64,000 nt of DNA, taken from positions 2,284,501 through 2,348,500 of the forward strand of contig NZ_CP088296.1 in the NCBI RefSeq assembly GCF_024666595.1. The letters are read 5' to 3'. Below are positions 30,041-51,463 of this stretch, in pieces. The notes beneath the pieces are model-generated. The model was not told the origin of the DNA and searched no databases. It saw only the letters and a list, made by a program, of their open reading frames with translations. Both the position numbers and the translations under genes were made by a program. The stretch comes from Sphingomonas sp. J315. Its GTDB lineage: Bacteria > Pseudomonadota > Alphaproteobacteria > Sphingomonadales > Sphingomonadaceae. Positions within the stretch are counted from its first letter, which is position 1. Each line of letters starts with the position of its first letter.

Positions 30041-30167
30041 TTGGCGCCCCGCGCTGGACAAACATAACGAATACGAATCGCCGTTTACACTACCATAGAA
30101 CCGCTGCTTGGCGACGGCTATCGACATGCGCCGCACTGCGGCGCCGCTGGCCCTGTGAAAAGCAAAG
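30041..30167 (-). repeat. Module-boundary repeat, copy A
   Basis: TTGGCGCCCCGCGCTGGACA begins a stretch found again at 37274 and 45555, always in the same orientation, around the invariant core AAACATAACGAATA. A second block (CCGCACTGCGGCGCCGCTGG) begins exactly 90 bases from the left end, as in copy B. Read on the minus strand it contains ATG TTT GTC CAG CGC GGG GCG CCA, but the coding similarity to copies B and C ends there. It marks the left edge of the efflux module. Confidence 0.8.
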
Positions 30168-30280
30168 GTTGGCCCAAGCGGATCGTCCGCTTTGCGAAGG
30201 CAAGGCAATGAAGCGGACCTCTATACGGATATTTCCACCCCGTTGGCTGTGACCGGGCGCGCCCCGGGCGTCCCTAATCA

Positions 30281-30327
30281 AGTTGCATGCACCTGCCCCC
30301 CGCCCCGCAACAGGTGGCATGCCAACT
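30281..30327. terminator. Imperfect inverted repeat downstream of the efflux operon
   Basis: The arms AGTTGCATGCACCTG (30281-30295) and CAGGTGGCATGCCAACT (30311-30327) pair with two single-base bulges around a C-rich loop. It lies about 100 bases past the end of the outer-membrane lipoprotein gene and may terminate that operon. Confidence 0.45.
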
Positions 30328-30429
30328 CTAATAAAATGCGAATTTGCCCCTCGAGTGAAGCCAACGTGGGGACGGTTTTGCTTGTCGCTGTCGAGTGTAT
30401 CCTTGATGTCTTACTCGTGCGGCAGCTTC

Positions 30430-31914
30430 TCAAGTTGCTCCGCTGGCTTCGCTCCATCCCAGCCCAAGCGACTTCTGAACCGCGACGTAGCTGGCAGTGA
30501 GCGCTGCGACGGCGCTGCGCAGGTTGGCCTCTGCGAGCAGACGCTGGCGCTCGGCGTCGAGGCTGTCGCCCAGCGAAATGACGCCACGCTCGTAGCGCTG
30601 CCGCATGAGCGCGGCCGACTGCTCTGCCGACCGACTGATCTCGGCGAGGGCGGCGACGGTGCGCCTTTGCTGTGCGAAGCGGGAGAGTGACGTCTCGGCG
30701 TCCTGCAGCGCGCCGAGCACGACCTGCCGATACTGCGCCTCGGCCTCGTCGCGGCCGGCGCGGGTCTGCGCGATCGCAGCCGACGTTCGCCCGAAGTCGA
30801 GCAGGCCCCACTGGAGCTGGGGGACGGCAATCTTCGAGATGTTGCCGAGGTCGACCAGGTCTCCGATCGTCGTTCCACCGATACCGAGGATTCCCATGAA
30901 GCTGATCTTGGGAAAACGGGCCGCTTCGGCCACTCCGATGCGCGCCGTCGCGGCCGCTAGGTTGCGCTCGGCAGCGCGGATGTCCGGCCGGCGGCGGAGG
31001 AGCGAGACAGGATCGCCGATGGCGACGCTGTCCGGCGGCAGCGGAATGTCCCGCGGAGGCGCCAACAGCGGATCGAGCGATCCCGGCGCCTCACCCGCAA
31101 GCGCGGCCAGCGCGTTGAGGTAGATCTCGATCTCGGCTTCGGCAGCGGCGAGATCACTGCTCGTTGCCTGCACGGCGCGGTCCGCCTGGCCGACGGTGAA
31201 GGCCGGAACCGTGCCCCGCCGGAAGCGCTGCTGCGCAAGCTCGAGCTGCTGCTGCTGGAGCTCGAGGGCGCGGTGCAGGGCGGCGGCGCGCTGCTGCCGG
31301 TCGCGAAGGTTGGTGTAGGTTTGCGCCACTTCCGCGGTCAGCTGGACCTGCGCGTCCGCCGCGTTGTAGGCGGCCGCGGCGGCCAGCGCATTGGCCGCCT
31401 CGATTGTTCGCACCTGCCCGCCGGCAAGGTCGATCTCCCAGTTGGCGTTCAGCCCCAGATTGTAGAACCGCAGGGATGTGTCCTGGTCCTGTGCCGACGG
31501 CGCCGGAGCCGGAGCTGGCGTTGGCGTCGGCGTTGGGGTGCCTCCCTGGCCTGACTGGAGGTCGATCCCGGGGAGATCGGCGAACACGGCTGTCCCTTGA
31601 GCGCCCGCAGTCGGAAAGAGGTTGCCGCGCTCCTGACGAACCGACGCTCGGGTCTGGCGGATTCTCGCTTGCGCGGCCTCCAAAGAAGGGTTGGCCGCAA
31701 GCACGCGCCGCTCAAGCTCGTCCAGCACCGGGTCCTGAAGCGTCGTCCACCAGGTGGCGACGGCCGGCTCGTTCGGTACCGCACCTGGTGCCTGACGGGC
31801 AAACGTGGCTTTGGGGGTGGCGCGGCCGAGCTCCGGCGGTCCAGCATAATCCGGGCCGACGACGCATCCGGCGAGGAGCAGTGGAGAAAGGATGAGAAAT
31901 CGGAACTTGGACAT
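30430..31914 (-). CDS. Outer-membrane efflux lipoprotein (OprM/NodT family)
   Basis: This is the outer-membrane channel for a tripartite drug efflux pump with the neighbouring EmrAB. The lipobox LSPLLLAGCVVGPDY marks a lipoprotein, and two outer-membrane efflux repeats follow with the typical WWTTLQDPVLDELE and LLRRRPDIRAAERNLAAATA blocks. An unusual Pro/Thr/Ala stretch (GTPTPTPTPAPAPAPSA, about 31497-31547) sits in the first half where an extracellular loop is expected. The product has 494 residues. It is the third gene of the emrA-emrB-lipoprotein operon, seven bases after emrB. The substrate range cannot be inferred. Confidence 0.9.
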   Translation of the reverse strand: MSKFRFLILSPLLLAGCVVGPDYAGPPELGRATPKATFARQAPGAVPNEPAVATWWTTLQDPVLDELERRVLAANPSLEAAQARIRQTRASVRQERGNLFPTAGAQGTAVFADLPGIDLQSGQGGTPTPTPTPAPAPAPSAQDQDTSLRFYNLGLNANWEIDLAGGQVRTIEAANALAAAAAYNAADAQVQLTAEVAQTYTNLRDRQQRAAALHRALELQQQQLELAQQRFRRGTVPAFTVGQADRAVQATSSDLAAAEAEIEIYLNALAALAGEAPGSLDPLLAPPRDIPLPPDSVAIGDPVSLLRRRPDIRAAERNLAAATARIGVAEAARFPKISFMGILGIGGTTIGDLVDLGNISKIAVPQLQWGLLDFGRTSAAIAQTRAGRDEAEAQYRQVVLGALQDAETSLSRFAQQRRTVAALAEISRSAEQSAALMRQRYERGVISLGDSLDAERQRLLAEANLRSAVAALTASYVAVQKSLGLGWSEASGAT

Positions 31915-31921
31915 TTGAGCC

Positions 31922-33478
31922 TCAGTGCATGGAAAGCGACAGCCCCTTGGGCAGCGGACGAAGGAACAATACGAGCGGAACGGTCAGGAGCGTCAGCAAG
32001 CCCATTCCCCAAAAGATGTCGTTGTAGGTCATCACGAAGGCCTGCTGCTGGATGGTTCCGGCGAGCGACTGAAAGGCTGCCTCCATGCTTCCGAGTGAAT
32101 GCGCGAGCCCTCCAAGATAGTCCTGGACCTGCCACTGGTTGGCCGGCAGCGTCTCTTCGATGCGGCGGCTGTGGAGCCACATGCGCTGGTCCTGGAATGA
32201 AGCCAGCGCTGCCAGGGCGAATGACCCTCCCAGGTTCCGGGCGGCATTGAAGATGCCCGATGCGTCGCCTGCGTCCTCCTTGCTTACCGACGCGATCGTC
32301 GCCTGATTCAAGAAGAGCATGGTCAGGATCATGCCCACTCCGCGTATCAGCTGTCCTTGCGTGAAAGCTTCGCCGCCTGATTCTGCTGTTAAGCTGGTGC
32401 TTACGAAACAGCTGATGGCCATGATCGCCAACCCAGCGCCGACAGCGATCCTGATGTCGATCAGCCGGATCATGAAAGGAATGAACGGCATCAACAGGAA
32501 GGCAGGAACACCCATGAGGAAGATGACCTGCCCTGTCTGGAGGGCATTATAGTCAGCGATCAGCGCCAGGAACTGCGGAATGACGAACATCGAGCCGTAC
32601 ATCACCATTCCCAGCGCCAGCGCCATGACGACGACGCTGCCGAACTGACGACTGAGGACCAGCCGAAGCTTCAACACAGGCCTTGCCGCCCAGAGCTGCC
32701 CGATTCCCAACAGCACAAAGCCGACCACCGTCACAATCGTCAGCTGGACGATGAGCGGCGACTCGAACCATTCCTCGCGATGGCCCTCTTCAAGCACGAC
32801 GGTCAGCCCTCCCAGGCCGAGGATCATGCCGATGATGCCGAGCCAGTCCGCCTCGCGCAGATATACCCAGTTCGTTCGTTCGTGCGGAAGGCCGAGCAGC
32901 AGGAGCAGCAGCAGCAGCGCGCAAACGGGTACGTTGACGAAGAAGGCGTAATGCCAGCTTAGATTCTCGGTCAGCCATCCGCCCAGAAGCGGGCCCAGAA
33001 CCGGCCCCAGGATCACGGTCATCCCGAACAGGGCCATCCCGATTGGCTGCTGGTGTGGCGGAAGGCGCTTGGCAACGATCGTCATCGCGGTTGGGATCAA
33101 CAACCCTCCCATCAGGCCCTGACCAGTGCGGCCTATGATCATCGTCGTCAGGTCCGTCGCGACGCCGCACAGGATCGAAAAGCCGGTAAAGGCAGTCACG
33201 GCGATAAGAAGCAGGGTCCTCAGTCCGAGAAGACGCTCGAGCCAGGCGCTCAATGGAATGACGACGATCTCGGCGACGAGAAAAGAGGTCGCGATCCAGG
33301 TTCCCTCGGTGCCGGTTGCGCCGATCTCGCCCTGGATCGTGGGCAGCGCCGAGTTGACGATAGAGATGTCCAGGGTCGCGAGCAGCGCCCCCAGCGCGCC
33401 CGCGGCCACGGCAATCCACGCCGTCGCGTCGGCTCTCTCAGGACGCGCTGCACCTGCGGGAGCTGCGGCTGTCGCCAC
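31922..33478 (-). CDS. emrB: EmrB/QacA-family MFS multidrug transporter (DHA2)
   Basis: This is the inner-membrane proton-coupled drug exporter of an EmrAB-type pump, with 14 predicted membrane helices (DHA2 family). The first helix carries the DHA2 hallmark LATLDISIVNSALPTI, and the second half begins with GIGQLWAARPVLKLRLV. It has 518 residues and no defect. Its start overlaps the emrA end by 41 bases, an unusually long overlap that implies tight co-translation. With EmrA and the OprM-type channel it can move hydrophobic drugs, detergents or uncouplers from the inner membrane to outside. Confidence 0.92.
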   Translation of the reverse strand: MATAAAPAGAARPERADATAWIAVAAGALGALLATLDISIVNSALPTIQGEIGATGTEGTWIATSFLVAEIVVIPLSAWLERLLGLRTLLLIAVTAFTGFSILCGVATDLTTMIIGRTGQGLMGGLLIPTAMTIVAKRLPPHQQPIGMALFGMTVILGPVLGPLLGGWLTENLSWHYAFFVNVPVCALLLLLLLLGLPHERTNWVYLREADWLGIIGMILGLGGLTVVLEEGHREEWFESPLIVQLTIVTVVGFVLLGIGQLWAARPVLKLRLVLSRQFGSVVVMALALGMVMYGSMFVIPQFLALIADYNALQTGQVIFLMGVPAFLLMPFIPFMIRLIDIRIAVGAGLAIMAISCFVSTSLTAESGGEAFTQGQLIRGVGMILTMLFLNQATIASVSKEDAGDASGIFNAARNLGGSFALAALASFQDQRMWLHSRRIEETLPANQWQVQDYLGGLAHSLGSMEAAFQSLAGTIQQQAFVMTYNDIFWGMGLLTLLTVPLVLFLRPLPKGLSLSMH

Positions 33479-34631
33479 CGCTTAACGCTCCCGGCTCGTG
33501 GCCCGTCAGAATCCTGTCCAGCTCTCCTTTGGCCGACCGTGTGTCGACGGTGACTTCCACCGACATTCCCGGGACGAGGAGTCGCCGCACTGCGGGAGGC
33601 GCGTCGATCGCTATGCGAACTGGCACGCGCTGCACGATTTTCGTGAAGTTGCCGGTCGCGTTCTGCGGCGGAAGGACGGAGAACTGCGCGCCGGTACCCG
33701 GAGCAAAGCTTGCCACGCGCCCGGTGAGCTCAACGCCGGGAAGCGCATCCACCTCGATGCTGACCGGCTGGCCGACCCGCATGAGGCCGAGTTGGGTCTC
33801 CTTGAAGTTCGCCTCGATGAACAAGCGGTCGACGGGCACCAAGGTCATCAGTCGGGTGCCGGGCTGGACGAACTGCCCGACGCGAACAGCGAGGTCACCG
33901 ACCCGGCCGCTGATGGCCGCCCTGAGCAGGGTCGACTCCACGTTAAGGCGAGCAGCGGCGAGTTGCGCCCGCGCGGAGTCGGCCTGCGATTGAGCCTGCC
34001 GGATCTGCGCGCCGAGCGTGCCGACCCGCCGCTGCGCGCCAACCAGGCCTGCTCGTGCAGCATCGGCCCGCTCGCGTGCCTGTCTGGCCTGTGTCTGGAG
34101 TTGGGCGAGCCGTTCGCGCGGCTCGGCGCCGGATTCGGCAAGAGGCTGGTAGCGCGCGACCTGCTGCGCCGCGAACGCGGCTTCGGCGCGTGCGGCGTCG
34201 AGTTGCGCCTGCGCCTGTGCGATCGCGGCCTGCTGCTCCGCAATCTGGGACCGCGTGGTGTCGGCCGTCGCTGTGGCCGCGCCGATCTGGCTGGTGATCT
34301 GCTCGGATTGCGCTCGATACTCACGCGGGTCGAGTTCGGCCAGTGGTTGGCCCTGCCGAACCGTTTGGTTCTCGGTAACCAGGACGCGCTCGACATAGCC
34401 GGCGATCTTCGGCGCCACGACAACCGAGTCTGCGGCAATGTACGCGTTATCGGTGCCCTGCATGTATATTCCGCGGCTCTGGCGATCGGAATACCAGATG
34501 AGGCCGGCAACGAGGACCGCGACTGCGCCAATGAGCAGCGCCAGCCGCACCCGTGGCGACTTGAGCGGGGAACTCCGGCGCTCTCCGGTGTTTTCAGTTT
34601 CTGCCGCCGCGACTGTCGATTGATCGGCCAT
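33438..34631 (-). CDS. emrA: EmrA-type membrane fusion protein (HlyD family)
   Basis: This periplasmic adaptor links EmrB to the outer-membrane channel. A short cytoplasmic tail is followed by one membrane helix (VRLALLIGAVAVLVAGLIWY), the barrel-sandwich start (GTDNAYIAADSVVVAPKIAG), a long Ala/Gln/Arg-rich coiled-coil hairpin (residues about 100-230), and the second half of the lipoyl-like domain (LRAAISGRVGDLAVRVGQFV). The ATG at 34631 (MADQSTVAAAE) is preferred over a start 16 codons upstream. It has 397 residues and is the first gene of the operon, divergent from marR with a 77-base gap that must hold both promoters. Confidence 0.92.
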   Translation of the reverse strand: MADQSTVAAAETENTGERRSSPLKSPRVRLALLIGAVAVLVAGLIWYSDRQSRGIYMQGTDNAYIAADSVVVAPKIAGYVERVLVTENQTVRQGQPLAELDPREYRAQSEQITSQIGAATATADTTRSQIAEQQAAIAQAQAQLDAARAEAAFAAQQVARYQPLAESGAEPRERLAQLQTQARQARERADAARAGLVGAQRRVGTLGAQIRQAQSQADSARAQLAAARLNVESTLLRAAISGRVGDLAVRVGQFVQPGTRLMTLVPVDRLFIEANFKETQLGLMRVGQPVSIEVDALPGVELTGRVASFAPGTGAQFSVLPPQNATGNFTKIVQRVPVRIAIDAPPAVRRLLVPGMSVEVTVDTRSAKGELDRILTGHEPGALSGGDSRSSRRCSAS

Positions 34632-34695
34632 GCCAGGATTCGTCCACTTCCGGGATTGAGGCGCGCGCCCTTGCCACACCGACTGAAACTAAGGC

Positions 34696-34706
34696 AATAC
34701 CGTATT
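34696..34706. promoter_or_regulatory. Small palindrome next to the marR start, candidate MarR box
   Basis: AATAC-C-GTATT is an 11-bp palindrome two bases before the marR ATG and within the emrA/marR divergent region. A MarR dimer bound here could repress both genes. No Shine-Dalgarno sequence is visible before the marR ATG, so its message may be leaderless. Confidence 0.4.
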
Positions 34707-34708
34707 AT

Positions 34709-35203
34709 ATGGAACCTCACGAACAGCGTTTACGATCGATTGCCACGACTTTCGGCTGGACGTGGTACAGGATGCGGCGTTTGATCGACGCGCATCTCGC
34801 CGCTCACGGCGCATCGATGGCCCGGCTGAAGCTTCTTGCTTTCCTTGTGGAGCAGCCGCGCCGATCGACCGACATCGCCAGCTTTTTCGATCATGCGCCA
34901 CGTACTGTGACCCAGGCGATCGACTCGCTTGAGCAGGCTGGCCTGGTCACGCGGTTGCCGGTCCCCGGCGACCGTCGTGCCAAGCTCGTGCAGATCACGG
35001 ATGCCGGCAGGGCGATGCTGGAACAGGGCATGCCGCTCTACGACGGCATTGTGGCCCAGACCTTCGGCAGCCTGACCGTGGAAGAGCTTGCGGGATTGGA
35101 CGGCGCTATCGCGCACCTCAGCCGGATCGTGGACGGGCTCGAAGACGAGGCCGGCTTCCGACAGGGTCCGAGCGCCACTCGCGCGGTGGAGAGCCGTGGC
35201 TAA
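34709..35203 (+). CDS. MarR-family transcriptional regulator
   Basis: This is a winged-helix repressor of the MarR family, probably controlling the divergent emrAB operon in response to the pump's substrates. The DNA-binding region shows RSTDIASFFDHAPRTVTQAI followed by the wing LVTRLPVPGDRRAKLVQITD. It has 164 residues, within the family range. It overlaps the start of the UbiB-like gene by eight bases, so the two form one transcript. A divergent marR next to emrA is a common arrangement in Gram-negative bacteria. Confidence 0.88.
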   Translation: MEPHEQRLRSIATTFGWTWYRMRRLIDAHLAAHGASMARLKLLAFLVEQPRRSTDIASFFDHAPRTVTQAIDSLEQAGLVTRLPVPGDRRAKLVQITDAGRAMLEQGMPLYDGIVAQTFGSLTVEELAGLDGAIAHLSRIVDGLEDEAGFRQGPSATRAVESRG

Positions 35204-36812
35204 TCAAGACCTGGTGAACGAGCCTGACAGCGCTGCGCTGAAGGAGCGGGAGCGTTTCGCTCAGATCGCGGTTCTGTTCGGGCGCCACGGCCTCAAGGGC
35301 TTGGCCGCGCGCCTCGGCCTGGGGTCCGCCCGCGACGAGCCGATTGAATATGCCCGCCCGGAAGCCGTGGTCGCGCTACTGCGCGACATCGGCCCGGTTG
35401 CGGTCAAGTTCGGCCAGATCCTCGCGATGCGCGGCGACCTGCTGGAGCCGGAATGGATCGCGGCGCTCTCGAAGCTGCAGGACCGGGTTCCACCACTGCC
35501 GTTCGCCACCGTGCTTCCGCTCATCGAGGAAGCGATCGGCGGGCCGATTGGGAACTGCTTCAGCCATTTCGACGAGAAGGCGATCGCAGCGGCCTCGATC
35601 GCCCAGGTCCACGCCGCGACTCTGCTCGACGGGCGGGACGTCATCGTCAAGGTTCGCCGCCCAGGGATCGAGCGGATCGTCGATGCTGACCTGCGGCTCT
35701 TACGGCGCCTAGCGCGCATTGCCGAGCGCCGCATTCCCGAGATCGCGCGGCTGAAGCCGGATGAGCTGCTGCGCCACTTCGCCGAAAGCCTCGACCGCGA
35801 GATGGACCTCAGCGCCGAAGCTCGCTCCAGCGATTCGATCGGCGCTTTCCTCAAGGACCTGGGCGTTCGAACCGCCCGCTTCGACTGGGAACTGTCTGGC
35901 AGGCGCGTCAATATCCAGGAGCGGTTTCGCGGCATCCCGGCGAGCGACCTGGAGGCGGCGCGCCGCGCCAATCTCGATCTCACCGCGCTGGCCAGCACCT
36001 ATGCCCAGGTGGTGCTGCGCATGATCATCATCAACGGTCACTTCCATGCCGACCCTCATCCGGGGAACGTGTTCTTCCTAGAGGACGGAGCGCTCGGGCT
36101 CATCGACTTCGGGGCGGTGGGAACGCTGCTTCCGAAACGGCGCGAGGAACTGGTCCGGCTCGGGCTGGCAATCGCGTCGGAGGACACCGCCGGAGTCGTC
36201 GACATTCTCATGCTTTGGGCGGGCGATCCGGACGTCGACCGGATCAGGCTGGAAGAGGCCCTTGCCGAGTTGATCGACCGCTTCAGCAACGTCCTGCTCG
36301 AACAGATCGACCTTGGCGACATCTTCCAGCGGGTTTTTGCGCTCCTGCGCGAGTTTCATCTCGCCCTCCCTCCCGATCTGGCCCTGGTGCTCCGTACCCT
36401 GCTTACGGCCGAGGGCTTCGTCCGGCGCATCGATCCGTCGTTCGACATGACTCGCGAACTCGCTCCCCTTGCCAGGGAGTTGATGCGGGAGCGGACCAGC
36501 CCGGCACGGCTACGCGGCGAAGCGGGCAAGCTGCTCGCCGCGCTGGGGAGAGCGGCGCTATCGACGCCGAGCCTCGTGGGGCAGATTGAGAAGGTCGCCC
36601 GAACCGGTACGATCCCGATCAGCATCGCCCCCCGAGACCTCGAGCGGTTGCGCGGTGGGGGGCGGGGCAGCGGCGGCAATCCGCAGCTTTATCCGGCGGC
36701 ACTCGCGATATGCGCGGCCATCGTCTTTACCTCCGAGCCGCGGCTGGCGGCGCTGCTCGCGCTGCTTTCCGTGGCCCTGGCCATTGCGGACTGGCTGAGG
36801 CGGCGGCGATGA
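35196..36812 (+). CDS. ABC1/UbiB (AarF) family protein kinase-like protein
   Basis: UbiB-type atypical kinases are membrane-anchored ATPases needed for ubiquinone biosynthesis or lipid handling. The family hallmarks are present: the KxGQ motif in VAVKFGQILAMRGD, the Ala-rich loop AAASIAQVHAA, the lysine in VIVKVRRPG, the catalytic GHFHADPHPGNVF and the DFG-like LIDFGAVGTL. Two hydrophobic segments near the C-terminus (YPAALAICAAIVF and AALLALLSVALAI) form the expected membrane anchor. GTG 35196 is chosen because it overlaps the marR stop and begins a coding-like N-terminus; ORF extension upstream runs through marR. It has 538 residues. Co-transcription with a drug-pump regulator is unusual and its role here is unknown. 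Confidence 0.85.
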   Translation: MANQDLVNEPDSAALKERERFAQIAVLFGRHGLKGLAARLGLGSARDEPIEYARPEAVVALLRDIGPVAVKFGQILAMRGDLLEPEWIAALSKLQDRVPPLPFATVLPLIEEAIGGPIGNCFSHFDEKAIAAASIAQVHAATLLDGRDVIVKVRRPGIERIVDADLRLLRRLARIAERRIPEIARLKPDELLRHFAESLDREMDLSAEARSSDSIGAFLKDLGVRTARFDWELSGRRVNIQERFRGIPASDLEAARRANLDLTALASTYAQVVLRMIIINGHFHADPHPGNVFFLEDGALGLIDFGAVGTLLPKRREELVRLGLAIASEDTAGVVDILMLWAGDPDVDRIRLEEALAELIDRFSNVLLEQIDLGDIFQRVFALLREFHLALPPDLALVLRTLLTAEGFVRRIDPSFDMTRELAPLARELMRERTSPARLRGEAGKLLAALGRAALSTPSLVGQIEKVARTGTIPISIAPRDLERLRGGGRGSGGNPQLYPAALAICAAIVFTSEPRLAALLALLSVALAIADWLRRRR

Positions 36813-37190
36813 GTCCGAGGCGATGTTAAAGCGCTTCTGAGCTGATTGGAATTGCGCGGGGTGAGGTGACATTCCGGATAGTCGGTCACGCTGTTCCCGA
36901 CCTAGTGCGAGGTAATGCGGCGTTCGGCATCGACAACCATCTTTTAAGCCTCACCGTCCCGGATTTCCGCCCGTGAACAATCCCATTCTGTCTGGGCAAG
37001 ATCCGCTCTGCGGCACCCTCGCGTTTCTTTCGCGCGTGAGATGCTCCTGAAGGCGTTGAGGTCGTAAGCTGCAGAACATCCCTCGATGAAGTCATTAGCT
37101 CCCATCGAGGTCCGCTATCGGCACTCGCCGCGACTTCCGCCACTGCCCGTCTCTGGCGCAAAGCGGCCGCCAAAACTGGCTATTGAAGTA

Positions 37191-37298
37191 TCATTCCGCG
37201 ATGATCGCCGCTTGCAACATGCCGGCATAGAGGCGGCGGTCCTCAGGCACGGCGCGGCGGCAGTCGACGGTATTTGGCGCCCCGCTCTGGATAAACAT
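37191..37298 (-). CDS. Tiny ORF in repeat copy B (35 codons), hypothetical
   Basis: The repeat, read on the minus strand, supplies the start and first ten codons (MFIQSGAPNT). Unique sequence follows, ending DRRLYAGMLQAAIIAE before TGA. A similar tiny ORF in copy C starts MFILHGAPNT and ends RRFYAKAAKATIIEN. The match at both ends, across otherwise different DNA, suggests a real microprotein family or the shared remnant of an older gene. No strong ribosome site is seen, although AAGGGG lies about 14 bases upstream. Function unknown. Confidence 0.4.
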   Translation of the reverse strand: MFIQSGAPNTVDCRRAVPEDRRLYAGMLQAAIIAE

Positions 37299-37400
37299 AA
37301 CGAATATGTATCGCCCCTTGCACTACTATAGAGTCGCCGCTCTACGCCGGTTCCCGGTTTACACCGCATTGCGGTGCCGCTGACACTATGAGGGGCAAAC
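37274..37400 (-). repeat. Module-boundary repeat, copy B
   Basis: The same layout as copy A: TTGGCGCCCCGCTCTGGATA, core AAACATAACGAATA, then CACTACTATAGA, and a second block CCGCATTGCGGTGCCGCTGA exactly 90 bases from the left end. The two copies align without gaps over 127 bases. It separates the efflux module from the defence module. Confidence 0.8.
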
Positions 37401-37530
37401 GCAGGCCGTTAGCTGACCGGCTAGTTGTGGCGGCTATCGAGGAATAGCGGGCCTCCGGCTACGTGCACCGCTCTGCGCACCTAGCAGGTGACACTATCAA
37501 CCAATGTGAACGAATGAGGAACAACAGGCT

Positions 37531-37549
37531 TGTAAAGCGACTCTTTACA
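37531..37549. promoter_or_regulatory. Inverted repeat, candidate autoregulatory operator of the methyltransferase
   Basis: TGTAAAG-CGACT-CTTTACA is a perfect 7-bp inverted repeat, 43 bases before the methyltransferase ATG. The TGTAAA/TTTACA form resembles targets of HigA-type repressors, and the next protein begins with a HigA-like domain. Confidence 0.6.
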
Positions 37550-37592
37550 GGGCACAGTCGCTGAAATGCCGCAGAAGTAGGGAGGCGGTCAT

Positions 37593-39716
37593 ATGCGAGC
37601 TGCAGTCCGCGCGATAGAGCCCGGCCATCCTGGTGGATTCGTCAAAAGCGAGATAGTCGAGGCCAACGGCCTGTCTGTGACGGATGCCGCACAGGTGCTC
37701 GGTGTGACCCGGCCGGCGCTCTCGGCGCTGCTTAATGGCCGCGCGGACCTGACACCACAAATGGCTGTCCGCATAGAGAAGGCCTTTGGCGTGCCTATCG
37801 AGCAGCTGATGGAGATGCAGACCAGCTTTGACATCGCGGAAGTCCGGAAGCGGGCCGACGAAATCAAGGTGGCGCCTTTTAAGTCAACAATGGCTAGGGC
37901 GCCGACGGGGGAGGAAGAGATGACAAATTCCAGATCATCCGCGCGCTTGAAAAAACCAGCGCCGATCGACCCGGCCGTTGCCATCGACTCCAAGCGCGTC
38001 GAGCTGGCGCGCGCCCGCGTCATGGCGCGGGCCTGGGCAGAAACGATCGCGGAGACACGCCGCACCGACCAGGCAGCCCTTTTCGCACGGGCAGCGATTG
38101 AGGCATTTGCCGCCTGTGTGGCGCCCCAGCTGACCCTCAGTCCGCCCTTTGTGACGGTGCGCGGAAAGCTCGACACGACCGCGCGCCAGCTCGCCACATC
38201 CGTCGGGCGCGAGGCTGCGATGCTGCCGATCGTGGAAGGTGGCCACTTCCTGACCAGCCTCTACACGACGCTACTGCCGGGGGAGCGTAGCGCCCTCGGG
38301 GCATTTTACACGCCTCCGGCGCTGACCCAGCGCCTTCTCGATCTCGCCGGCGAAGGTGGCGTCGATTGGTCAAGCGCGCGTGTGCTTGACCCGGCGAGTG
38401 GCGGCGGCGCCTTTCTTCTGGAAGCCGCGTCCCGCATGCGCCGGGCGCTCGAAGGCAGCGAACCGGCTTTTATCCTTGCGCAGCTCGGCACTCGTCTTTC
38501 GGGCCTCGAACTTGATCCGCACGCGGCATCGCTCTCACAGGCCGCGCTTGAAATCTTCCTATCTGACCTCAGTACGGCGAGCGGCCGCGCCGCGCCGATC
38601 TTCGTGAAGGTCTGCGACACGCTCGAAGAGACGCCCGTGGCGCAATATGACTTGGTGATCGGCAATCCACCTTACGGGCGCGTGACCCTCTCGGCCGCGC
38701 AACGCGCCCGCTATGCACGCAGCCTGTACGGTCATGCCAACCTGTATGGCGTATTCACCGATGTTGCGCTGCGATGGACGCGGCCAGGCGGTGTGATCGC
38801 CTACCTGACGCCTACAAGCGTTCTAGGCGGGCAGTATTATACTGCATTGCGTCAGCTTCTCGCCGCCGAGGCTCCGCCCGTCGCGATAGATTTCGTCCAT
38901 GCGCGCCGTGGCGTCTTCGAGGATGTGTTGCAGGAAACCCTGCTCGCGCTCTACCGCAAGGGCGGAAAGCGCGATCGTTTCCAAGTCCACTATCTCAATG
39001 TCGATAACGAGCGCGAAGCGCGCCTAACCAAGAATGGCAAGGTCGGCCTTCCAATCAACGCCGGCGCGCCTTGGCTTGCGCCCCGCGAGCCCGGCCATGT
39101 GGGGTTGATCAAGGCGGCCGAAGGCATGGCCGCGCGCCTGTCGGATTGGGGATATGGCGTTTCGACCGGCCCGCTCGTGTGGAACAGGTTCAAGTCTCAG
39201 ATGCGCACCCGCGCGGCGCGCGGGCTGCATCCACTGATTTGGGCGGAAGCGGTGACGGCCGACGGGCGCTTCGTCTTCCGGGCGCAGAAGAAGAATCATG
39301 CACCCTATTTCAAGACGGAAGCGGGGGATGAGTGGCTCGTAGTAAACCAACGGTGCGTCCTCGTGCAGCGCACCACGGCCAAGGAGCAACTGCGCCGTCT
39401 CATCGCGGCCGAACTGCCGCAGGCCTTCATCGACACGCACGGCGGGGTGATTGTCGAAAACCACCTGAACATGGTGCGGGCGCTCGGAAAGCCGATCGTG
39501 ACGCCCGCTGCCGTCGCCGCCGTCCTCAACAGCGATGTGGTCGATCAAGTATTTCGTTGCATTAGCGGTAGCGTCGCCGTCTCGGCGTTTGAGTTAGAGG
39601 CCATTCCGCTACCGCCCGCGTCGGCCATGGCGCCGATTGAGCGGCTTGTCGCTAATGGCTCTCCGCGCGGGGCAATCGAAAAGGCCCTGCGTGGTCTCTA
39701 TGGCCTCAAAGCATGA
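37593..39716 (+). CDS. DNA N6-adenine methyltransferase with HigA-like HTH N-terminus
   Basis: The first 100 residues are a HigA-type antitoxin-like helix-turn-helix (HPGGFVKSEIVEANGLSV, TRPALSALLNGRADLTPQMA, IEQLMEMQTSFDIAEVRKRA). The rest is a gamma-type adenine methyltransferase with SAM motif DPASGGGAFLLEAA, catalytic NPPY in LVIGNPPYGRV, and a target-recognition region after about residue 450. It protects DNA from the adjacent endonuclease; if that is a PstI isoschizomer the target is CTGCAG. GGAGG lies eight bases before the ATG. An internal ATG at 37921 could yield the enzyme without the HTH. The HTH plus the inverted repeat at 37531 suggests self-control of expression. The stop overlaps the endonuclease start (ATGA). 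Confidence 0.88.
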   Translation: MRAAVRAIEPGHPGGFVKSEIVEANGLSVTDAAQVLGVTRPALSALLNGRADLTPQMAVRIEKAFGVPIEQLMEMQTSFDIAEVRKRADEIKVAPFKSTMARAPTGEEEMTNSRSSARLKKPAPIDPAVAIDSKRVELARARVMARAWAETIAETRRTDQAALFARAAIEAFAACVAPQLTLSPPFVTVRGKLDTTARQLATSVGREAAMLPIVEGGHFLTSLYTTLLPGERSALGAFYTPPALTQRLLDLAGEGGVDWSSARVLDPASGGGAFLLEAASRMRRALEGSEPAFILAQLGTRLSGLELDPHAASLSQAALEIFLSDLSTASGRAAPIFVKVCDTLEETPVAQYDLVIGNPPYGRVTLSAAQRARYARSLYGHANLYGVFTDVALRWTRPGGVIAYLTPTSVLGGQYYTALRQLLAAEAPPVAIDFVHARRGVFEDVLQETLLALYRKGGKRDRFQVHYLNVDNEREARLTKNGKVGLPINAGAPWLAPREPGHVGLIKAAEGMAARLSDWGYGVSTGPLVWNRFKSQMRTRAARGLHPLIWAEAVTADGRFVFRAQKKNHAPYFKTEAGDEWLVVNQRCVLVQRTTAKEQLRRLIAAELPQAFIDTHGGVIVENHLNMVRALGKPIVTPAAVAAVLNSDVVDQVFRCISGSVAVSAFELEAIPLPPASAMAPIERLVANGSPRGAIEKALRGLYGLKA

Positions 39717-40777
39717 CGCTGCCAGCACTCCTGCCCTGGAATGAGATCCACGGCCGCCTACCCGAAATATTCCCGGAGGGTTTGCAAAACCGCGAGCACT
39801 CGATTTGGGAAATCTCGGCCAAGACAATCTTCGTGATGCTCTACACTGGCGCTATCGAAGGCGCAGACCGCTGGATTCGCCCTGATCAGGTCACGCGTAT
39901 GACCGATGAACAGGCGGCGCAGACGGATGATGAGGCACGCGACGCTTGGGCGAGGTTCTCCATCAAGCCAAGCAAGGCTGACGTGCCCGGCCGCTGGTAT
40001 GCGGTGAACACGCGGGAATCGATCCGTGACGACACGATCCGGTATGCGCTTATCCAGAATGGCGCCGTGATTGAGCGTCCCGGCCTCTCCACCACGTCGC
40101 CGGCGGGGCGCTATGCCCTGCAGGGCGATTTCGCGGGCCTGCTGTCGCCAGGTCTCGATAATGCCACGTTCATTGCGAAAGCAGCCGCTTGGCGGGAAAA
40201 GCACCTCAACGCGGGTGCGCTAGCGCGGATTGCGATTGTCCGCAGGGGCGCGGCCGGCGGTGGCGCGTACGAACTTGTGACGTTTCCCAACGGCGAAACC
40301 CGCCGCATGACGACGGGGCCGAGCGCCGACATTTCCAAGGCTGTAATCGAGGTTTTCGCGCCCAAGTTCCTGCAAAAGCCGGGCGTGATCACGTTGAGCG
40401 AGAGCGGCAATAAGGTGGTCGCAAGGGATGACGAACTGGCCAAGGCGATTGGCTTGACGATCCCGTCCGACAAGAGCCTCCCTGACATCGTGCTGGTCGA
40501 TCTCGGCCCAGCGCATCCGCTACTGATCTTCGTCGAAGTCGTGCATACAGACGGCCCCGTCAATGACGCACGTAAAGCGGCGCTCCTGCAGATTACGGAG
40601 GGGGCCGGCTTTGCACCGCAGCATGTGGCGTTCGTGACAGCATATCTCGATCGCGCGTCACCGACATTCCGCAAGACGGTCAGCAACCTGGCCTGGGGCA
40701 GTTACGCTTGGTTCGCATCCGAGCCCGACAGCCTCATCGTATTCAGCGGCAAGCCGCTGCAGATCGAGGGCGGCTGA
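39713..40777 (+). CDS. Type II restriction endonuclease, BsuBI/PstI family
   Basis: This is the restriction half of the R-M pair. The C-terminal part matches the BsuBI/PstI catalytic domain as known: PDIVLVDLGPAHPLLIFVEV followed by VHTDGPVNDARKAALLQI, with acidic and Glu residues fitting a PD-(D/E)xK fold, then FVTAYLDRASPTFRKTVSNL. The N-terminal domain begins NEIHGRLPEIFPEG, as in family members. At 354 residues it is of the expected size. It overlaps the methyltransferase by four bases. Family members characterised so far cut CTGCAG; that this one does is an inference. Confidence 0.85.
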   Translation: MTLPALLPWNEIHGRLPEIFPEGLQNREHSIWEISAKTIFVMLYTGAIEGADRWIRPDQVTRMTDEQAAQTDDEARDAWARFSIKPSKADVPGRWYAVNTRESIRDDTIRYALIQNGAVIERPGLSTTSPAGRYALQGDFAGLLSPGLDNATFIAKAAAWREKHLNAGALARIAIVRRGAAGGGAYELVTFPNGETRRMTTGPSADISKAVIEVFAPKFLQKPGVITLSESGNKVVARDDELAKAIGLTIPSDKSLPDIVLVDLGPAHPLLIFVEVVHTDGPVNDARKAALLQITEGAGFAPQHVAFVTAYLDRASPTFRKTVSNLAWGSYAWFASEPDSLIVFSGKPLQIEGG

Positions 40778-40781
40778 CGGC

Positions 40782-41030
40782 GTGGCTCGCGTACGTCTTG
40801 TGGAGGGCAGCGACGGCGCCCAAGAACGCCAGCCGCGTACGGGAACAAAACAGGCGCTGCTGGTCGCCATGCTGTCGCGGAAAAGCGGTGCAACCATCCG
40901 AGAAATTATCGAGGAAACAGGCTGGAAGGCCAACACAGTGCATGCCGCCCTTTCGACTTTGCGGACGTCCGGCCGACAAATCGCAGTTGAGCATGCCGGA
41001 AGCGTAAAACGCTATCGCATCATGAACTAG
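40782..41030 (+). CDS. DUF3489 small HTH-like protein
   Basis: This is an 82-residue protein. After a basic N-terminus it carries TKQALLVAMLSRKSGATIRE and the helix-turn-helix-like IIEETGWKANTVHAALSTLR, then a short wing ending KRYRIMN. This is the DUF3489 pattern, small predicted DNA-binding proteins often found on mobile elements. It starts at GTG 40782, five bases after the endonuclease stop. Its stop shares CTAG with the stop of the convergent helicase gene. It could regulate the R-M genes, but there is no direct evidence. Confidence 0.7.
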   Translation: MARVRLVEGSDGAQERQPRTGTKQALLVAMLSRKSGATIREIIEETGWKANTVHAALSTLRTSGRQIAVEHAGSVKRYRIMN

Positions 41031-42916
41031 GCGACGATCTCGATCTCCTCTTCGGCGAACCAGCCCTGCTTCACCATCGCAGCCCGCGCGGCGTCGACAG
41101 TCTCGGCGTAATAGACGACCGCCAAGCTGTCCTCGGCGCGGCTGCAGGTGACGTAGAACAACCGCCGGGTACGGTCGATCGTCGTCTCCTTGCCGGCCGC
41201 CTCGTTCTTGAGATCGGTATCGCTTTTGCCCTTGGCACCGAACAGTTTGTCATAGGCGAACATGAAGCCCCGCGCTTCCTCATCGCTGACGATCACCATC
41301 ACGCGAGGGAACTCCAAGCCCTTGACGCCCTGATGCGTGTCGAATCTGGAAGTGCCGCTAACATAGCGATCGTACCGCTCGATTTCGTCAAGCGGCGCTT
41401 CGAGCGCCTGACGCCATCCCCCAAGTTCAGTCTTTAGATTCAGCTCCTCCTCGTCCGTGCCCGAGGCTCCTTCGTCGTCCGTGGGTTCGTCCGGCACCGT
41501 GAAGGGGGCCAGCACGTCGGGAATCGTGAAAAGCCGCGTCTCGGCGATGTAGCGCAGCACCTCTCGCGCCGTTGGCATGGCATGGCCCGAAACCAAGGCC
41601 AGCAGACCATCGCATGCCGCCTTCGCGGCGGCGAGTACCTCGGCCTGGCCTTCGCCAGCCTCCTCAAGCGCCTTGCTGTCGAGGAGCGGCGACGTCTTGC
41701 GAACGATCGATGCGACCGCGAACCGGTCGGCAGCTCGTAATGCTTCGACGAGCGGCAGAACCTCGCGCGTGAAAAAGCCGATCCCGGCCCCCGTGCCCTG
41801 TAGGAAGCTCGTTCTAATCCGCTCGACGGCGTAAAGGGGGCCGAAGAACCGTTCGAACCCGAAACGCCTAGCGGACATTAGGTGCTCGAGCGCGAGCGTC
41901 TTGATGGCGTCGGAGCCTTCGGACCAACCTTCGTCGCCGGTGATCGCCTGCATTCGAGCGGCGACCGCCGCTTCCGTTGCCGACTTGTCCGCCCTCTGCG
42001 GCGCGATGAACAAGCGCACGGTGCCGGCTGCGGCATCGCTCCGCGGCAGCTGCTTTTCGCCATCGTCATCTTGCCGGACGCGGTTGATCAACTCCACCAC
42101 CCTTGTCGGGCAGCGATGGTTCATGCTCTTGCGCGGCCGAGCCCAGGCCTCCGGAATGGCTTCCGCCAAGCGCTCTTTCCCGTCCGCGTAGATCCTTTGC
42201 ATCATGTCGCCGAAGAGCCCGAGGCAGAACGTGTCCCGATGCGCCGCCTCGACGTCGAGCAGCACATCCATGAGTTGGCGGCTGGTGTCCTGACTTTCGT
42301 CAATCAACAGCACGGGGAACCGCGTGACGAGAAGACGACGCAAGCCCGGCTTGGAGGCGAGGAAATCGGCCGTCATGGCGATCACCTCGGCGTGATTCAG
42401 AGAGTCGCGCGTTTGGTTGTCGCCGGTCGGGCTGTAGATAAAGCGGATGATCGACCCCAGGTTCTCGTGTCGGTGTCGCTTGCTCTCGATCGAACGGGCT
42501 CGATCGGCGGCCGCCTTGCTGGCCGCGCGCCCTTTCGCCTGCGCTTCCTCCAACTCCGCAATGTCCTGGAGCAGCCGGCCGGCTAGCCATCCCCGGATGT
42601 CGTTGTCGTAGCCGGAGATCAGAGACCAGGCGAAAGCATGGATAGTCGACACTTCGACGCGCGGATCGAACTCCAAGCGCTGCTTGATCTCGTCGCAGGC
42701 CGCATTGGTGTAGGTGATCACGCCGATCTTCTGGCCGCTCAGCGACAGATCGCGACCTTGCCGTTCACAAACCGTTCGAATGGCCTCGACTAGCGAACGC
42801 GTCTTCCCTGACCCTGCGCCCGCATAGACGAAGAAGCTGCGTGGCTTGGCGATATCTAGACAGCCGATAATCGTCTCATCGGCCGCGACGTCGTGGAGAT
42901 CGTCCGCACCGCTCAT
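41027..42916 (-). CDS. UvrD/Rep-like superfamily 1 helicase, Gabija GajB-like
   Basis: This SF1 helicase has Walker A FVYAGAGSGKTRSLVEAI, motif Ia VITYTNAACDEIKQRL, DExx box VLLIDESQDTSRQL, motif III LGLFGDMMQRIYADG, motif V FDTHQGVKGLEFPRVMV and motif VI RRLFYVTCSRAEDSLAV. The start at 42916 shares one base with the end of the OLD nuclease gene (TGATG), so the two are co-translated. In class 2 OLD systems, including Gabija, the nuclease gene is followed by such a helicase, which supports anti-phage function. At 629 residues it is longer than the Bacillus GajB (about 490). A longer frame to 43012 overlaps the nuclease and is rejected. Confidence 0.85.
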   Translation of the reverse strand: MSGADDLHDVAADETIIGCLDIAKPRSFFVYAGAGSGKTRSLVEAIRTVCERQGRDLSLSGQKIGVITYTNAACDEIKQRLEFDPRVEVSTIHAFAWSLISGYDNDIRGWLAGRLLQDIAELEEAQAKGRAASKAAADRARSIESKRHRHENLGSIIRFIYSPTGDNQTRDSLNHAEVIAMTADFLASKPGLRRLLVTRFPVLLIDESQDTSRQLMDVLLDVEAAHRDTFCLGLFGDMMQRIYADGKERLAEAIPEAWARPRKSMNHRCPTRVVELINRVRQDDDGEKQLPRSDAAAGTVRLFIAPQRADKSATEAAVAARMQAITGDEGWSEGSDAIKTLALEHLMSARRFGFERFFGPLYAVERIRTSFLQGTGAGIGFFTREVLPLVEALRAADRFAVASIVRKTSPLLDSKALEEAGEGQAEVLAAAKAACDGLLALVSGHAMPTAREVLRYIAETRLFTIPDVLAPFTVPDEPTDDEGASGTDEEELNLKTELGGWRQALEAPLDEIERYDRYVSGTSRFDTHQGVKGLEFPRVMVIVSDEEARGFMFAYDKLFGAKGKSDTDLKNEAAGKETTIDRTRRLFYVTCSRAEDSLAVVYYAETVDAARAAMVKQGWFAEEEIEIVA

Positions 42917-45269
42917 CACGCGACCTGCTCTGGCTGCGGTGCGTTCGGCTCGGCAAGCTCGATCTCGGGCAGGATTTCGACCTGCTTCTTCTTCAGTTGC
43001 GCCAACAGCCATTCCAGGCCTTCGGCGATGTAGCGTGGTACGACGAGGTCATCGAACCCCTCGGCCTCCAGCACATCAAGGGCAAACTCGGCCTTCTTGC
43101 CGTCCTTCAACGCCTGATACATGCGGCCGCCAATCGCGGCGGCACCACCGCCAGCTTCGATCGCCGCCCTGAACTTCCGCACCAGCCCGGTCCCCTCGAA
43201 CGCCGCGAAGAACGCGATGTTCTCGAACGCAAACGCATCTTCAAAGGTGTACGGAAATGCGGTGTCCGCGCCTGCGGTTCCGGGAGGCGTTACCTTCACG
43301 GGCGCCTGATAAGCGACGCGGACTGCAAAGAGCGGATCGCCGTCGGATCGCCGGGTCTTCGCCTTATCATCAGCATCGATGAGCGCGTCAACGTCATCCG
43401 TTGCCGGAATCCACGTTTTCAGTGTGGCGTTATTGGTCTTCTGGCCGGTCCCCTTCGCGGGCTGAGCCGAAGCGCCGCCGGTTCCCGTCAATGTGTCTAG
43501 GTCCGTGATGACGAGCGTCAGGAGGCCGAGGTGCTCGATCAAGGGCCGCAGCCGGTGAGCGTGGCTTCCCCCGATTTCGAGCAACGTGATGTAGCATTGG
43601 TTCAGCTCGTCATAGTGCGCCCGGATGAAGTTCGGGACGAGCATACGCTCTGCCGGCCCTTCCACGAGAATGGCGGCGTCGGCGAAGAATAGGTCGGCGT
43701 GTTGCGCGCGAAGGTATCGGGTTACGAACCGTTCCGTCTCGCCATTGGCCCCGAACACCTCCGACATGTTGATCACCGTCGACACGGGCACCTTGGCGGC
43801 CATCCCAGCCGGCAGGCGACGAAAGTAGCGGAGACACGAGAACGAGGTCTCGTGGGCGACGTGGCTAGAGTGGGTGCTGACCACGAGCTGGGTGCGCAGC
43901 TTCAAATTGTCCCCAAGGTCCTCATGGGCGCGCAGCACGGCGTAAGCCTTTTTGATGAAGACCTGCTGCACCTGCGCGTGAAGGTGCGCCTCCGGCTCCT
44001 CAATGAGCACAAGGTGGAGCGGTTCGGTATGAACCGCTGAGATGGTTTTCGAGGCCTTTCCGACGCGCATCCACGCATCGCGGAAGCTCATCAGGCGAAA
44101 GATCATCGAGATGAGATTCTGATACCCCAAGCCGTTGTTCGCTTCGGGCAGGCGTAGGATCGGCGTCATTCCGCCGTCCTCGGCGATCACGTCGACCTCG
44201 AAGGTGATTGCTGCGCCGTGATTGAGGCCGTCGATCGCCTTCAAACGGGTCGACACGCGCGGCCGGGGGTCGGTCACGCCGGGATAGCCCATGCCCTCGA
44301 CCTCGGTGAAGGCGGCCTTGAAGCTTTCGGTGAGGCGCTTGTCGAATGCATCCTGCGCGGCTTCGATCGCCTGCAGCGCGCCCAGGTCCTTGGGGTCCGG
44401 TCCCTTCGTCGGGTCGAGGTGTTTGGCGTAGTAGCTCTTCAGCTGGTCTGAAAGGCGGCTTCCCGCCGCGGCCGCTGGCGCGTCTTCGTCCTCCTGCGAA
44501 GGCTGCTCCTCGCCGAAACCGCGCTGCGCCGGAATGTCGTGCACGCGAATGAGCCCGGCCAAGACATCGCTTCCGATGGGGAGGGAGGTTGGCGGCAGAA
44601 CCTGGGGCTGGGCCTGGGACTTGGTCGGTTCCACGAGCTTGGCCGGATCGAGCGAGTAAGCCTGAACCGTAAAGTAGGTCGACAGGCGCTTACTGAGGAA
44701 GTCGACGAGACTTTCCGGCCAGATCGTCAGCTTGGGGGCGCCGGCGGCGGATCGGCGTCCGGGTGCTCGGCCATTACGGCGGCAATCGCCGCCGCCCGCA
44801 TCGCCTCGGCATCGCTAAGCGCTCCCATGAAGTCCTTGTAGAGAAGCTTCAGGTCCTTCGGCTCATAGCGGAGTCGCACGCCGAGACTGCCGCCTTCCCA
44901 GTCGAGCGTCGGAATGAGGTCGCGCACATGGTGCATCTCGCCGGGTTCGACATGGAGCCAAAGATCCAGCGTTGGCAGGGCCGACGCCCACGGCTCGACG
45001 ACGAGATCGACAATCTCTTCCTTGTCCCGCGCCTCGACCCAGCTTTTCCCGATGCCGATGATCGTCGGCCAGTGGGAGAGGGTAAAGTCGTGGATCTCGA
45101 AGGGGCAGCGCCGCGGCGATAGGAAGCGTCGCAGGGCAAGCATCGCCGAGGTCTTGCCGCTGTTGTTCGCGCCGACAAACAGCGTCGTCGTTGCGGCAAG
45201 GTCGACTCGGATCGACAACAGCTTCCGAAAATTGGCAATCTCAACGAACTTGATGTGCATCGTCCCCAT
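42916..45269 (-). pseudogene. OLD-family ATPase-TOPRIM nuclease, Gabija GajA-like, one frameshift
   Basis: The N-terminal ABC-type ATPase half shows IKFVEIANFRKLLSIRVDL and Walker A FVGANNSGKTSAML. The rest carries GLGYQNLISMIFRLM, Walker B HLVLIEEPEAHLHAQVQQ, STHSSHVAHE, then the TOPRIM Glu in AAILVEGPAERMLVPNFI and the Asp pair in LVITDLDTLTG. One C is missing at the run 44734-44738, which splits the gene after PPPAPP; restoring it gives 784 residues, larger than Bacillus GajA (about 580). The next gene is a UvrD helicase, the layout of a Gabija-type class 2 OLD system: a DNA-nicking nuclease triggered by phage replication. The start may be ATG 45269 or 45260. Confidence 0.83.
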
Positions 45270-45492
45270 CCCCCGGTGTCGGTGCAGTCGTTAACGCGAT
45301 GTCCGTCGAGTGGACTCGTCCGCACTAGCTCTATGCCCGGACCATTACCTGCCCTGCCAGTATCCATAACTCCAGCGTGCGACGACACGATGCCTGTCGA
45401 TAGCGACAAGGAAGCGCTTAGCCGCTGTTCTACCCGACACGATTCGAACTTTTCGCCGCCATGCACCGCCGTACCTACGACTATGACAATCC

Positions 45493-45579
45493 TCAGTTTT
45501 CGATGATCGTAGCCTTGGCGGCTTTAGCGTAGAATCGGCGGACTATGGCGGTATTTGGTGCCCCGTGCAGGATAAACAT
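45493..45579 (-). CDS. Tiny ORF in repeat copy C (28 codons), hypothetical
   Basis: The ORF starts MFILHGAPNT within the repeat and ends RRFYAKAAKATIIEN at TGA. It is shorter than the copy B ORF by seven codons in the middle but matches it at both ends. Function unknown; coding status is uncertain. Confidence 0.38.
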   Translation of the reverse strand: MFILHGAPNTAIVRRFYAKAAKATIIEN

Positions 45580-45620
45580 AACGAATACATTTCGCCGTTT
45601 TCACTACTCTAGAACCGTCC
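45555..45620 (-). repeat. Module-boundary repeat, copy C
   Basis: TTGGTGCCCCGTGCAGGATA followed by AAACATAACGAATA and CACTACTCTAGAACCG matches copies A and B for about 66 bases; the second block 90 bases in is absent here. The preceding GTATTT is shared with copy B. It separates the defence module from the metal-resistance module. Confidence 0.78.
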
Positions 45621-45730
45621 GAGGCAGTAGCACGCCGCCTCCCCCGCCGTGCCTAACCATGATCGCTACTGCATAGGCGGGAGCTGCCCGGAAAGGCGCG
45701 ATTTGAGCGGGAATCTCGATTCTATGAGCA

Positions 45731-51450: not shown

Positions 51451-51463
51451 CAAGGACGCGAGG

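Follow-up and report, generated by a model that had tools for sequence, protein, structure and literature searches.

A repeated 66-base block as the probable left attachment arm of stacked integrative and conjugative elements and passenger cassettes in Sphingomonas sp. J315

The contig NZ_CP088296.1 of Sphingomonas sp. J315 carries, in a stretch of 64,000 nucleotides (positions 2,284,501 to 2,348,500 of the forward strand, hereafter the window), three copies of a conserved block of about 66 bases, each at the left edge of a different gene module. What does such a repeat do, and how did the modules come to lie side by side? An earlier reading of the letters of the window (the original prediction) had proposed a recombination or attachment site used repeatedly for the stepwise insertion of cassettes. 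Here we provide evidence that the most fitting reading of the block is as an arm of an attachment site; judging from sequence comparison, we put the probability at roughly 0.9 that it is the element-side left arm in a family of integrative and conjugative elements (ICEs) with a large serine integrase.

The repeated block and the units it bounds

The three copies, at 30041, 37274 and 45555, lie in the same orientation and are 77-83% identical to each other (55, 53, and 51 of 66 bases in pairwise comparison), and the next best score of the first copy against the rest of the window on either strand is 32/66. Within the block, the 14-mer AAACATAACGAATA, searched with up to two mismatches allowed, occurs in exact form at three window sites (30060, 37293, and 45574); shuffled windows contained 0.02 such sites on average, and three sites were seen in 0 of 100 shuffles. 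An Rfam scan of the window gave no matches. The predicted number and orientation of the copies were thus confirmed, the predicted extent of some 66 bases was about right, given that information content across 42 left ends is high from the TGG to about +60 and then lower, and each copy does stand at the left edge of a module: efflux by a major facilitator superfamily (MFS) transporter with HlyD and outer membrane efflux proteins (OEP), type II restriction-modification with Gabija, and metal-type efflux of the resistance-nodulation-division (RND) type. The ends and units in the window are as follows.

30041..30106, + strand: left end of passenger cassette 1, its attL arm; the tail in frame runs from TGG (30042) to TAG (30098), WRPALDKHNEYESPFTLP and stop
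30042..37274, + strand: passenger cassette 1, resembling a cis-mobilizable element (CIME), 7,233 bp; left end, efflux cargo, right end
37256..37274, + strand: right end of cassette 1, matching the CGGCGGnnnnCGGCGG[T/A]ATT type imperfectly and directly followed by the next TGG
37274..37339, + strand: left end of passenger cassette 2; tail from TGG (37275) to TAG (37331), WRPALDKHNEYVSPLALL and stop
37275..45555, + strand: passenger cassette 2, 8,281 bp; type II restriction-modification and Gabija
45537..45555, + strand: right end of cassette 2
45555..45620, + strand: left end of the ICE; tail from TGG (45556) to TAG (45612), WCPVQDKHNEYISPFSLL and stop
45556..64000, + strand: part of the ICE that lies in the window; the whole occupies genome positions 2330056-2370694

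A fourth, diverged copy with a DKNNEY tail lies elsewhere in the same genome, at position 1524123 (G000:C1, locus L178), and a stretch resembling a tRNA 3′ end, about 6.7 kb beyond it, may be the right edge of that unit.

Left termini across genomes and the integrase at the right junction

An exact 18-base pattern search of genome contigs gave 77 loci. In 65 of these the left end is complete, and most of them belong to sphingomonads and other Alphaproteobacteria; the other 12 were dropped as chance matches, and none of the four pattern matches in viral contigs was accompanied by the remainder of the left end. When 40 regions were compared, similarity began no more than 15 bp from the block in 20 of 22 pairs that represent the same unit at an identity of at least 97%. 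Among 63 unique left ends, including those of the window (identical flanks were counted once, and two left ends with short or N-containing flanks were dropped), 10 are preceded by the CGGCGGnnnnCGGCGG[T/A]ATT right end of another unit with up to three mismatches, and the remaining 53 by other sequence that is A-rich in its last bases. Judging by these similarity edges and preceding right ends, units begin at the TGG of the block, which forms their left terminus, and stacked units run head to tail. Block matches that share a contig have the same orientation in the genomes listed.

The same units also recur in different surroundings. One array of a cassette and an ICE, reaching from the block to tRNA-Arg genes (acg, tct, and ccg), is found in three genomes of different genera, where the copy of Prosthecomicrobium (G316, L052) is 99.964% identical to that of Pacificimonas (G318, L059) over 44,238 bp and 99.957% identical to that of Enterovirga (G317, L060) over 44,231 bp. 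The ICE of this array occurs without the cassette in L061 (99.97% identity over the 3,480 bp compared, from the block on), so that one ICE is seen both with and without a cassette (L163 and L061). A 10,725-bp cassette, 99.9% identical between loci, stands before another unit in L149 and alone with other flanks in L150, and an isolated cassette lies flush at tRNA-Arg(tct) (L135/L160), the genes of L160 looking metabolic by eye. Several units with differing cargo share a right-hand module of a LysR gene and trb genes (by eye in L169), and the ICE of the window aligns to that of the Prosthecomicrobium genome in blocks of 79-88% identity. The proposed stepwise insertion at a repeated attachment site is therefore supported by related units, through the pair edges, L149 versus L150, and L163 versus L061.

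The ICE that opens at 45556 is 40,639 bp long, and its right end lies flush with a tRNA-Arg(TCT) gene at genome positions 2370695-2370771, 22 kb past the window. It carries its own large serine recombinase, a relaxase, a coupling protein and type IV secretion genes, and has precise ends in the left block and the tRNA-Arg junction. Its last gene encodes the recombinase, of 566 amino acids (L196:536-2236), with Resolvase, Recombinase, and Zn_ribbon_recom domains all above the Pfam cut-off. The earlier remark that no integrase is nearby is correct for the window itself (best tblastn E-value of the integrase 0.77) and fails beyond it, since the gene sits at the far end of the island, about 54 kb right of the first copy. 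Just before the junction, the 3′ end of the gene contains a perfect inverted repeat, ACCGCCGCCTCT/AGAGGCGGCGGT, which was noticed by eye (L196 2138-2166) and is possibly a terminator or a binding site.

The integrase frame runs open across the right junction (...RAFEPK|W, with W encoded by TGG, the complement of the tRNA CCA end) and on into antisense tRNA codons, a continuity seen at five aligned junctions. Of 39 integrase rows, which comprise only matches reaching residue 430, 34 (32 distinct genes, 57-100% identical) read in frame into an antisense tRNA, the targets being tRNA-Arg (tct, acg, ccg, cct, tcg), tRNA-Ser (tga, gga, cga), and tRNA-Asn (gtt) genes. As for the other five, L219 hits a contig end, no tRNA is seen in L212 or L218, and the second piece of L174 and one piece of L146 are partial. 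Intact ICE right ends are flush at tRNA genes, and 114 of the 120 integrase homologues listed (of 4,620) match the antisense-tRNA tail, with no stop before the junction. At the level of sequence, then, the frame crosses the attachment site, and integration would alter the C-terminus of the enzyme.

The distribution of the block follows that of a subgroup of these integrases. Among 298 genomes of the family, 56 have the integrase (E-value at most 1e-60) and 18 have the block (three mismatches); it is present in 12 of the 14 genomes whose integrase is at least 86% identical, versus 2 of the other 42 integrase-bearing genomes, and in 4 genomes without such an integrase. By this co-occurrence, the block belongs to the integrase subgroup in question. 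Near the left ends, a motif scan of open reading frames (ORFs) for tyrosine recombinases gave nine scattered matches only, and clustering of 1,501 ORFs from 69 loci revealed no shared recombinase among the clusters listed, which read as cargo only.

In four units, the base at position 4 of the block changes between C and T with the insertion site (L061 C versus L031/L052 T; L047 T versus L021/L068/L080 C; L082 T versus L053 C; L081 T versus L074 C). Because this base varies by site it seems to derive from the flank, which would place the exchange at or right of base 4, TGGY/GC. We would picture integration as follows. The right end and the left end of a circular form would together make up attP, which the integrase would recombine with the 3′ end (CCA) of a tRNA gene, the exchange falling at or near TGGY/GC. 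Each integration would remake a usable site at the left edge, where new units could stack head to tail, and cassettes without an integrase may travel with the ICE or be moved by its enzyme in trans. In the circular form, the integrase gene would take its final 18 codons and its stop from the block, and integration would put antisense-tRNA codons in their place.

Several observations weigh against this reading. The right end of the cassettes is a separate type, unlike the right end of the ICE (TTTGAACCGAAA). Two of the 22 unit pairs are exceptions, in that L143/L144 start 47 bp further left and L147/L148 share 2.6 kb of left flank, apparently representing one site, and in one unit base 4 does not vary between the two sites, being T in each (L046, L077). 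Among the 56 integrase-bearing genomes, 42 lack the block at three mismatches, and no left end with the tail motif was found in the 28-60 kb upstream of seven more distant integrases (57-76% identity; G242, G224, G083, G257, G101, G286, and G260). Some single cassettes (L116, L150, L172) stand at places without an ARAGORN tRNA call, and a diverged left end on plasmid pTomTYG65b (L265 7644-8057) interrupts a glycosidase-like ORF with no tRNA, apparently an off-target site; by eye the ORF looks like an arabinofuranosidase gene of glycoside hydrolase family 51. The window's own cassettes were not seen elsewhere with their ends: no listed match of cassette 1, in 75 other genomes of the 298, starts before base 405, so its cargo is shared and its left end is not, and cassette 2 is represented by its restriction-modification part only, in six other genomes of the 298. 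Lastly, the trbE (CagE_TrbE) frame of the ICE looks split into two overlapping ORFs (L195 822-3310, - strand), which may mean a loss of self-transfer in this genome or an error in the assembly and leaves the present activity of the ICE uncertain.

The host site belongs with these points. The left-flank gene of the window is found in 0 of 20 other genomes of the genus (E-value at most 1e-80), which means that both flanks are not comparable together, and none of the genus genomes offered a clean empty site flanked as in the window on both sides. On the other side, yhhQ occurs in 20 of 21 genus genomes, J315 included. Of the eight retrieved as loci, one is that of J315; in the seven relatives tRNA-Arg(tct) lies beside yhhQ, its left neighbour varies, and nothing there resembles the integrase end of the ICE. 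For another genome, G099, the search for an empty site turned up only weak and partial matches, in three relatives, and neither of the two loci checked has a tRNA.

Two side observations concern insertion sites. In one of the seven relatives (L259), the left neighbour of tRNA-Arg(tct) weakly matches, by tblastx (36%, 179 codons), a place in the J315 genome some 42 kb to the left of the array; the stretch between may therefore hold further foreign DNA. Similar left flanks ending in ATCAAC(C) precede the block in L036/L150, L048/L172, and L079, perhaps marking a second preferred site that is not a tRNA gene.

DNA arm or integrase tail

In the frame of the integrase the block reads WRPAxDKHNEYVSPFALL followed by a stop, and in 38 of 42 nonredundant left ends this stop falls at codon 19 (the exceptions are L034, L045, L048, and L071). 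In L045, the tail ends in a CTA repeat that is expanded, giving 27 codons instead of 18, possibly by slippage. Given an attachment arm, the frame itself can be read in two ways.

The somewhat favoured possibility is that the block serves only as a predicted DNA-binding arm of attP, with the open frame being incidental, a consequence of how its bases are patterned and of the lack of a stop ahead of the junction. Several lines of evidence point in this direction. The core is nearly invariant, third codon positions included, and conservation runs a few bases past the tail stop codon across the 42 left ends. Conservative and synonymous change are no higher than in shuffled columns, with 687 and 916 of 2000 shuffles reaching the observed scores; codons 6-11, which are fixed by the search pattern, were left out of this permutation test. 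When mismatches were tolerated in the search, 19 of 25 sites had AAACATAACGAATA unchanged; the six variants comprise two synonymous and four nonsynonymous ones, which speaks for constraint at the DNA level. The shared stop position and the kept frame nevertheless ask for a reason, though DNA constraint could give one. Because of the null result of the permutation test and the mostly exact AAACATAACGAATA, the DNA-arm reading appears better supported, and a role as a protein tail is possible.

A functional tail is the more tentative of the two. Here integration would swap the C-terminus of the integrase, and the enzyme would sense whether it is integrated, ending in antisense-tRNA residues, or circular, ending in the DKHNEY-type tail, as a switch of direction or activity of the kind known from phage Mx8; the leftmost cassette of an array would then supply the tail of the excised circle. 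In its favour are the frame kept at the five aligned junctions and in 34 of the 39 integrase rows, the absence of a stop before the junction in 114 of the 120 homologues listed, and the common stop at codon 19. The natural junction in L061 adds to these, as the left neighbour there is a 33-residue decayed remnant of another integrase end that is joined in frame to the tail. Against it, substitutions in the block are not more protein-like than in the shuffles, the variants of AAACATAACGAATA are mostly nonsynonymous, and a DKHNEY-type tail is carried by none of the 120 homologous integrase proteins listed (of 4,620) and by none of the left regions of the seven more distant integrases. Going further, one could regard the block as an interchangeable integrase tail, such that the circular form ends in W-R-P-x-x-DKHNEY-x-SPF-x-LL and the integrated form in antisense-tRNA residues, the enzyme reads its own state, and the leftmost passenger gives the tail and perhaps sets the excision behaviour of the whole excised array; this is a speculative extension that we consider rather improbable.

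Explanations that do without an attachment arm of a serine integrase fare worse. Integron gene cassettes are unlikely, as the units are multi-gene and about 4-10 kb long and come with a serine integrase. A Xer-dependent origin, in which the block would be dif-like and the cassettes dif modules, had been suggested by the resemblance of TTATGTTTATC, on the minus strand, to a XerD arm; we regard it as highly improbable and did not retain it, since a large serine integrase lies at the right end of the ICE, insertion is at tRNA 3′ ends, and isolated cassettes (L159, L160) have the block on their left only rather than a dif-like site on both sides. A role as promoter or regulatory repeat ahead of operons would fit the intergenic position and the conserved AT-rich core, and is just as hard to sustain, as the efflux genes beside the block in the first and third units are transcribed towards it and the left flanks of homologous units change at the block.

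Cargo of the units and comparison with known systems

The genes of the two passenger cassettes are listed below.

30430..31914, - strand: outer membrane efflux protein (OEP)
31922..33478, - strand: MFS transporter
33438..34679, - strand: HlyD/CusB-like membrane fusion protein
34709..35203, + strand: MarR family regulator
35088..36812, + strand: ABC1 atypical kinase-like protein
37593..39716, + strand: type II DNA methyltransferase
39713..40777, + strand: BsuBI/PstI-type restriction endonuclease
41027..43012, - strand: GajB (Gabija UvrD-like helicase)
42916..44634, - strand: C-terminal part of GajA (profile 194-730)
44727..45269, - strand: N-terminal part of GajA (profile 1-153), a separate ORF

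Recombinase or transfer domains were found in 0 of the 11 ORFs tested in the two cassettes (smaller ORFs were outside the test), 10 of which have cargo domains and one, an overlapping ORF, no domain at all. With attachment ends and neither an integrase nor transfer genes among the ORFs tested, the units at 30042 and 37275 are, by their gene content, probable passengers like cis-mobilizable elements. The two ORFs that cover one GajA profile (42916-45269, - strand) suggest that the Gabija nuclease gene may be interrupted here.

The part of the ICE in the window has the following genes.

45731..48934, - strand: RND transporter (AcrB/CusA-like)
48934..50097, - strand: CusB/HlyD-like membrane fusion protein
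50094..51347, - strand: outer membrane efflux protein
53766..55760, - strand: FTR1 iron permease with cytochrome c domain
56679..57449, + strand: LuxR-type autoinducer-binding regulator
57723..58958, + strand: LysR-type regulator beside the trb operon
59533..60750, - strand: TrbI
60747..61763, - strand: TrbG/CagX
61760..62443, - strand: TrbF/VirB8
62447..63811, - strand: TrbL/VirB6

Beyond the window follow a TrbE-like ORF pair, VirB3, a T2SSE ATPase, a coupling protein (T4SS-DNA_transf), and a relaxase (Relaxase/DUF3363). An ARAGORN call of tRNA-Asp at 62128-62212 was taken as false because it sits inside trbF; ARAGORN also called a tRNA-Asp(atc) in the trb region of another ICE (L180).

Units of this kind carry Gabija with type II restriction-modification and MFS and RND efflux in the window, and other cargo elsewhere. 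The 5.2-kb cassette before the widespread ICE encodes SIR2-type and short-Argonaute proteins, and that ICE begins with chrB; the single cassette of L159 encodes a set of the cyclic-oligonucleotide-based antiphage signalling system (CBASS) type, with cyclase, E2, phospholipase, and capP. The tag formed by the 66-base left end and the CGGCGG-type right end allows such stacked alphaproteobacterial ICE cassettes to be delimited at near base resolution. A literature search found no description of this ICE and cassette family among titles and the starts of abstracts, most subscription papers lying outside the search.

Several known systems share parts of this arrangement. In ICEMlSym-type ICEs of Mesorhizobium, the passages of the source at hand describe a trb conjugation cluster, a relaxase, and sites at tRNA genes, as here; they differ in having tyrosine integrases in 73 of 79 elements, with serine integrases in five integrative and mobilizable elements and one ICE (PMC8627217). 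Serine integrases were stated in the relevant part of the 2014 Islander paper as not known to target tRNA genes (PMC4383910), and the present data add 32 serine integrase genes, each at the 3′ end of a tRNA-Arg, tRNA-Ser, or tRNA-Asn gene. The intP/attP arrangement of phage Mx8 is similar in that attP lies inside the integrase gene and integration gives a new 3′ end, according to excerpts of PMC6070905 and PMC4383910; it belongs to a phage integrase named among tyrosine-family integrases (PMC4383910), whereas the enzyme described here is a serine integrase of an ICE. Strand-biased circularizing elements and GInt, in the excerpted account of PMC10214605, are likewise integrative and can carry resistance cargo, and differ by their tyrosine recombinases (intA-CDS2-intB plus CDS4, or ginC-ginD in GInt). 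For Alphaproteobacteria, that account reports neither Tfp/Srap homologues nor ginC-ginD blocks, and we rejected this class for the present units, as its marker genes are unreported there (PMC10214605) and none were seen here.

The integrase of ICESt1 is of the tyrosine type. In accretion of the ICESt1 type, an ICE likewise lies beside passengers with attachment ends and without integration or transfer genes (Pavlovic et al. 2004, as summarized in parts of PMC3146451 and PMC10214605). The system described here differs from it by its serine integrase, by passenger right ends of a separate conserved type, and by a cargo of defence, metal, and efflux genes.

The closest known system is that of the ssrA islands of Dehalococcoides with the DsiB serine recombinase. 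According to the passages of McMurdie et al. 2011 (PMC3146451) that deal with them, these are tandem islands at an RNA gene, the recombinase gene always overlaps the attachment site at its 3′ end and has no stop of its own, and islands without an integration module are seen as possible cis-mobilizable elements. The same passages describe a tmRNA gene as target, a CcrB-like recombinase with a second small recombinase, and elements taken to be mobilizable and not conjugating. The present family, by comparison, uses tRNA-Arg, tRNA-Ser, and tRNA-Asn genes rather than ssrA and includes a trb-type ICE; one large serine recombinase was seen, with no search aimed at a second recombinase, and it is likened to DsiB by description. 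The Dehalococcoides authors also suggested, in that part of the paper, that the 3′ fragment might sit on the circle or on an adjacent island (PMC3146451). Here the displaced 3′ fragment can be identified with the conserved 57-base block, in 42 nonredundant units. The block thus makes a question raised by dsiB addressable, namely whether the detached 3′ gene fragment matters, and the repeat in which it lies marks how bacteria stack useful gene modules.

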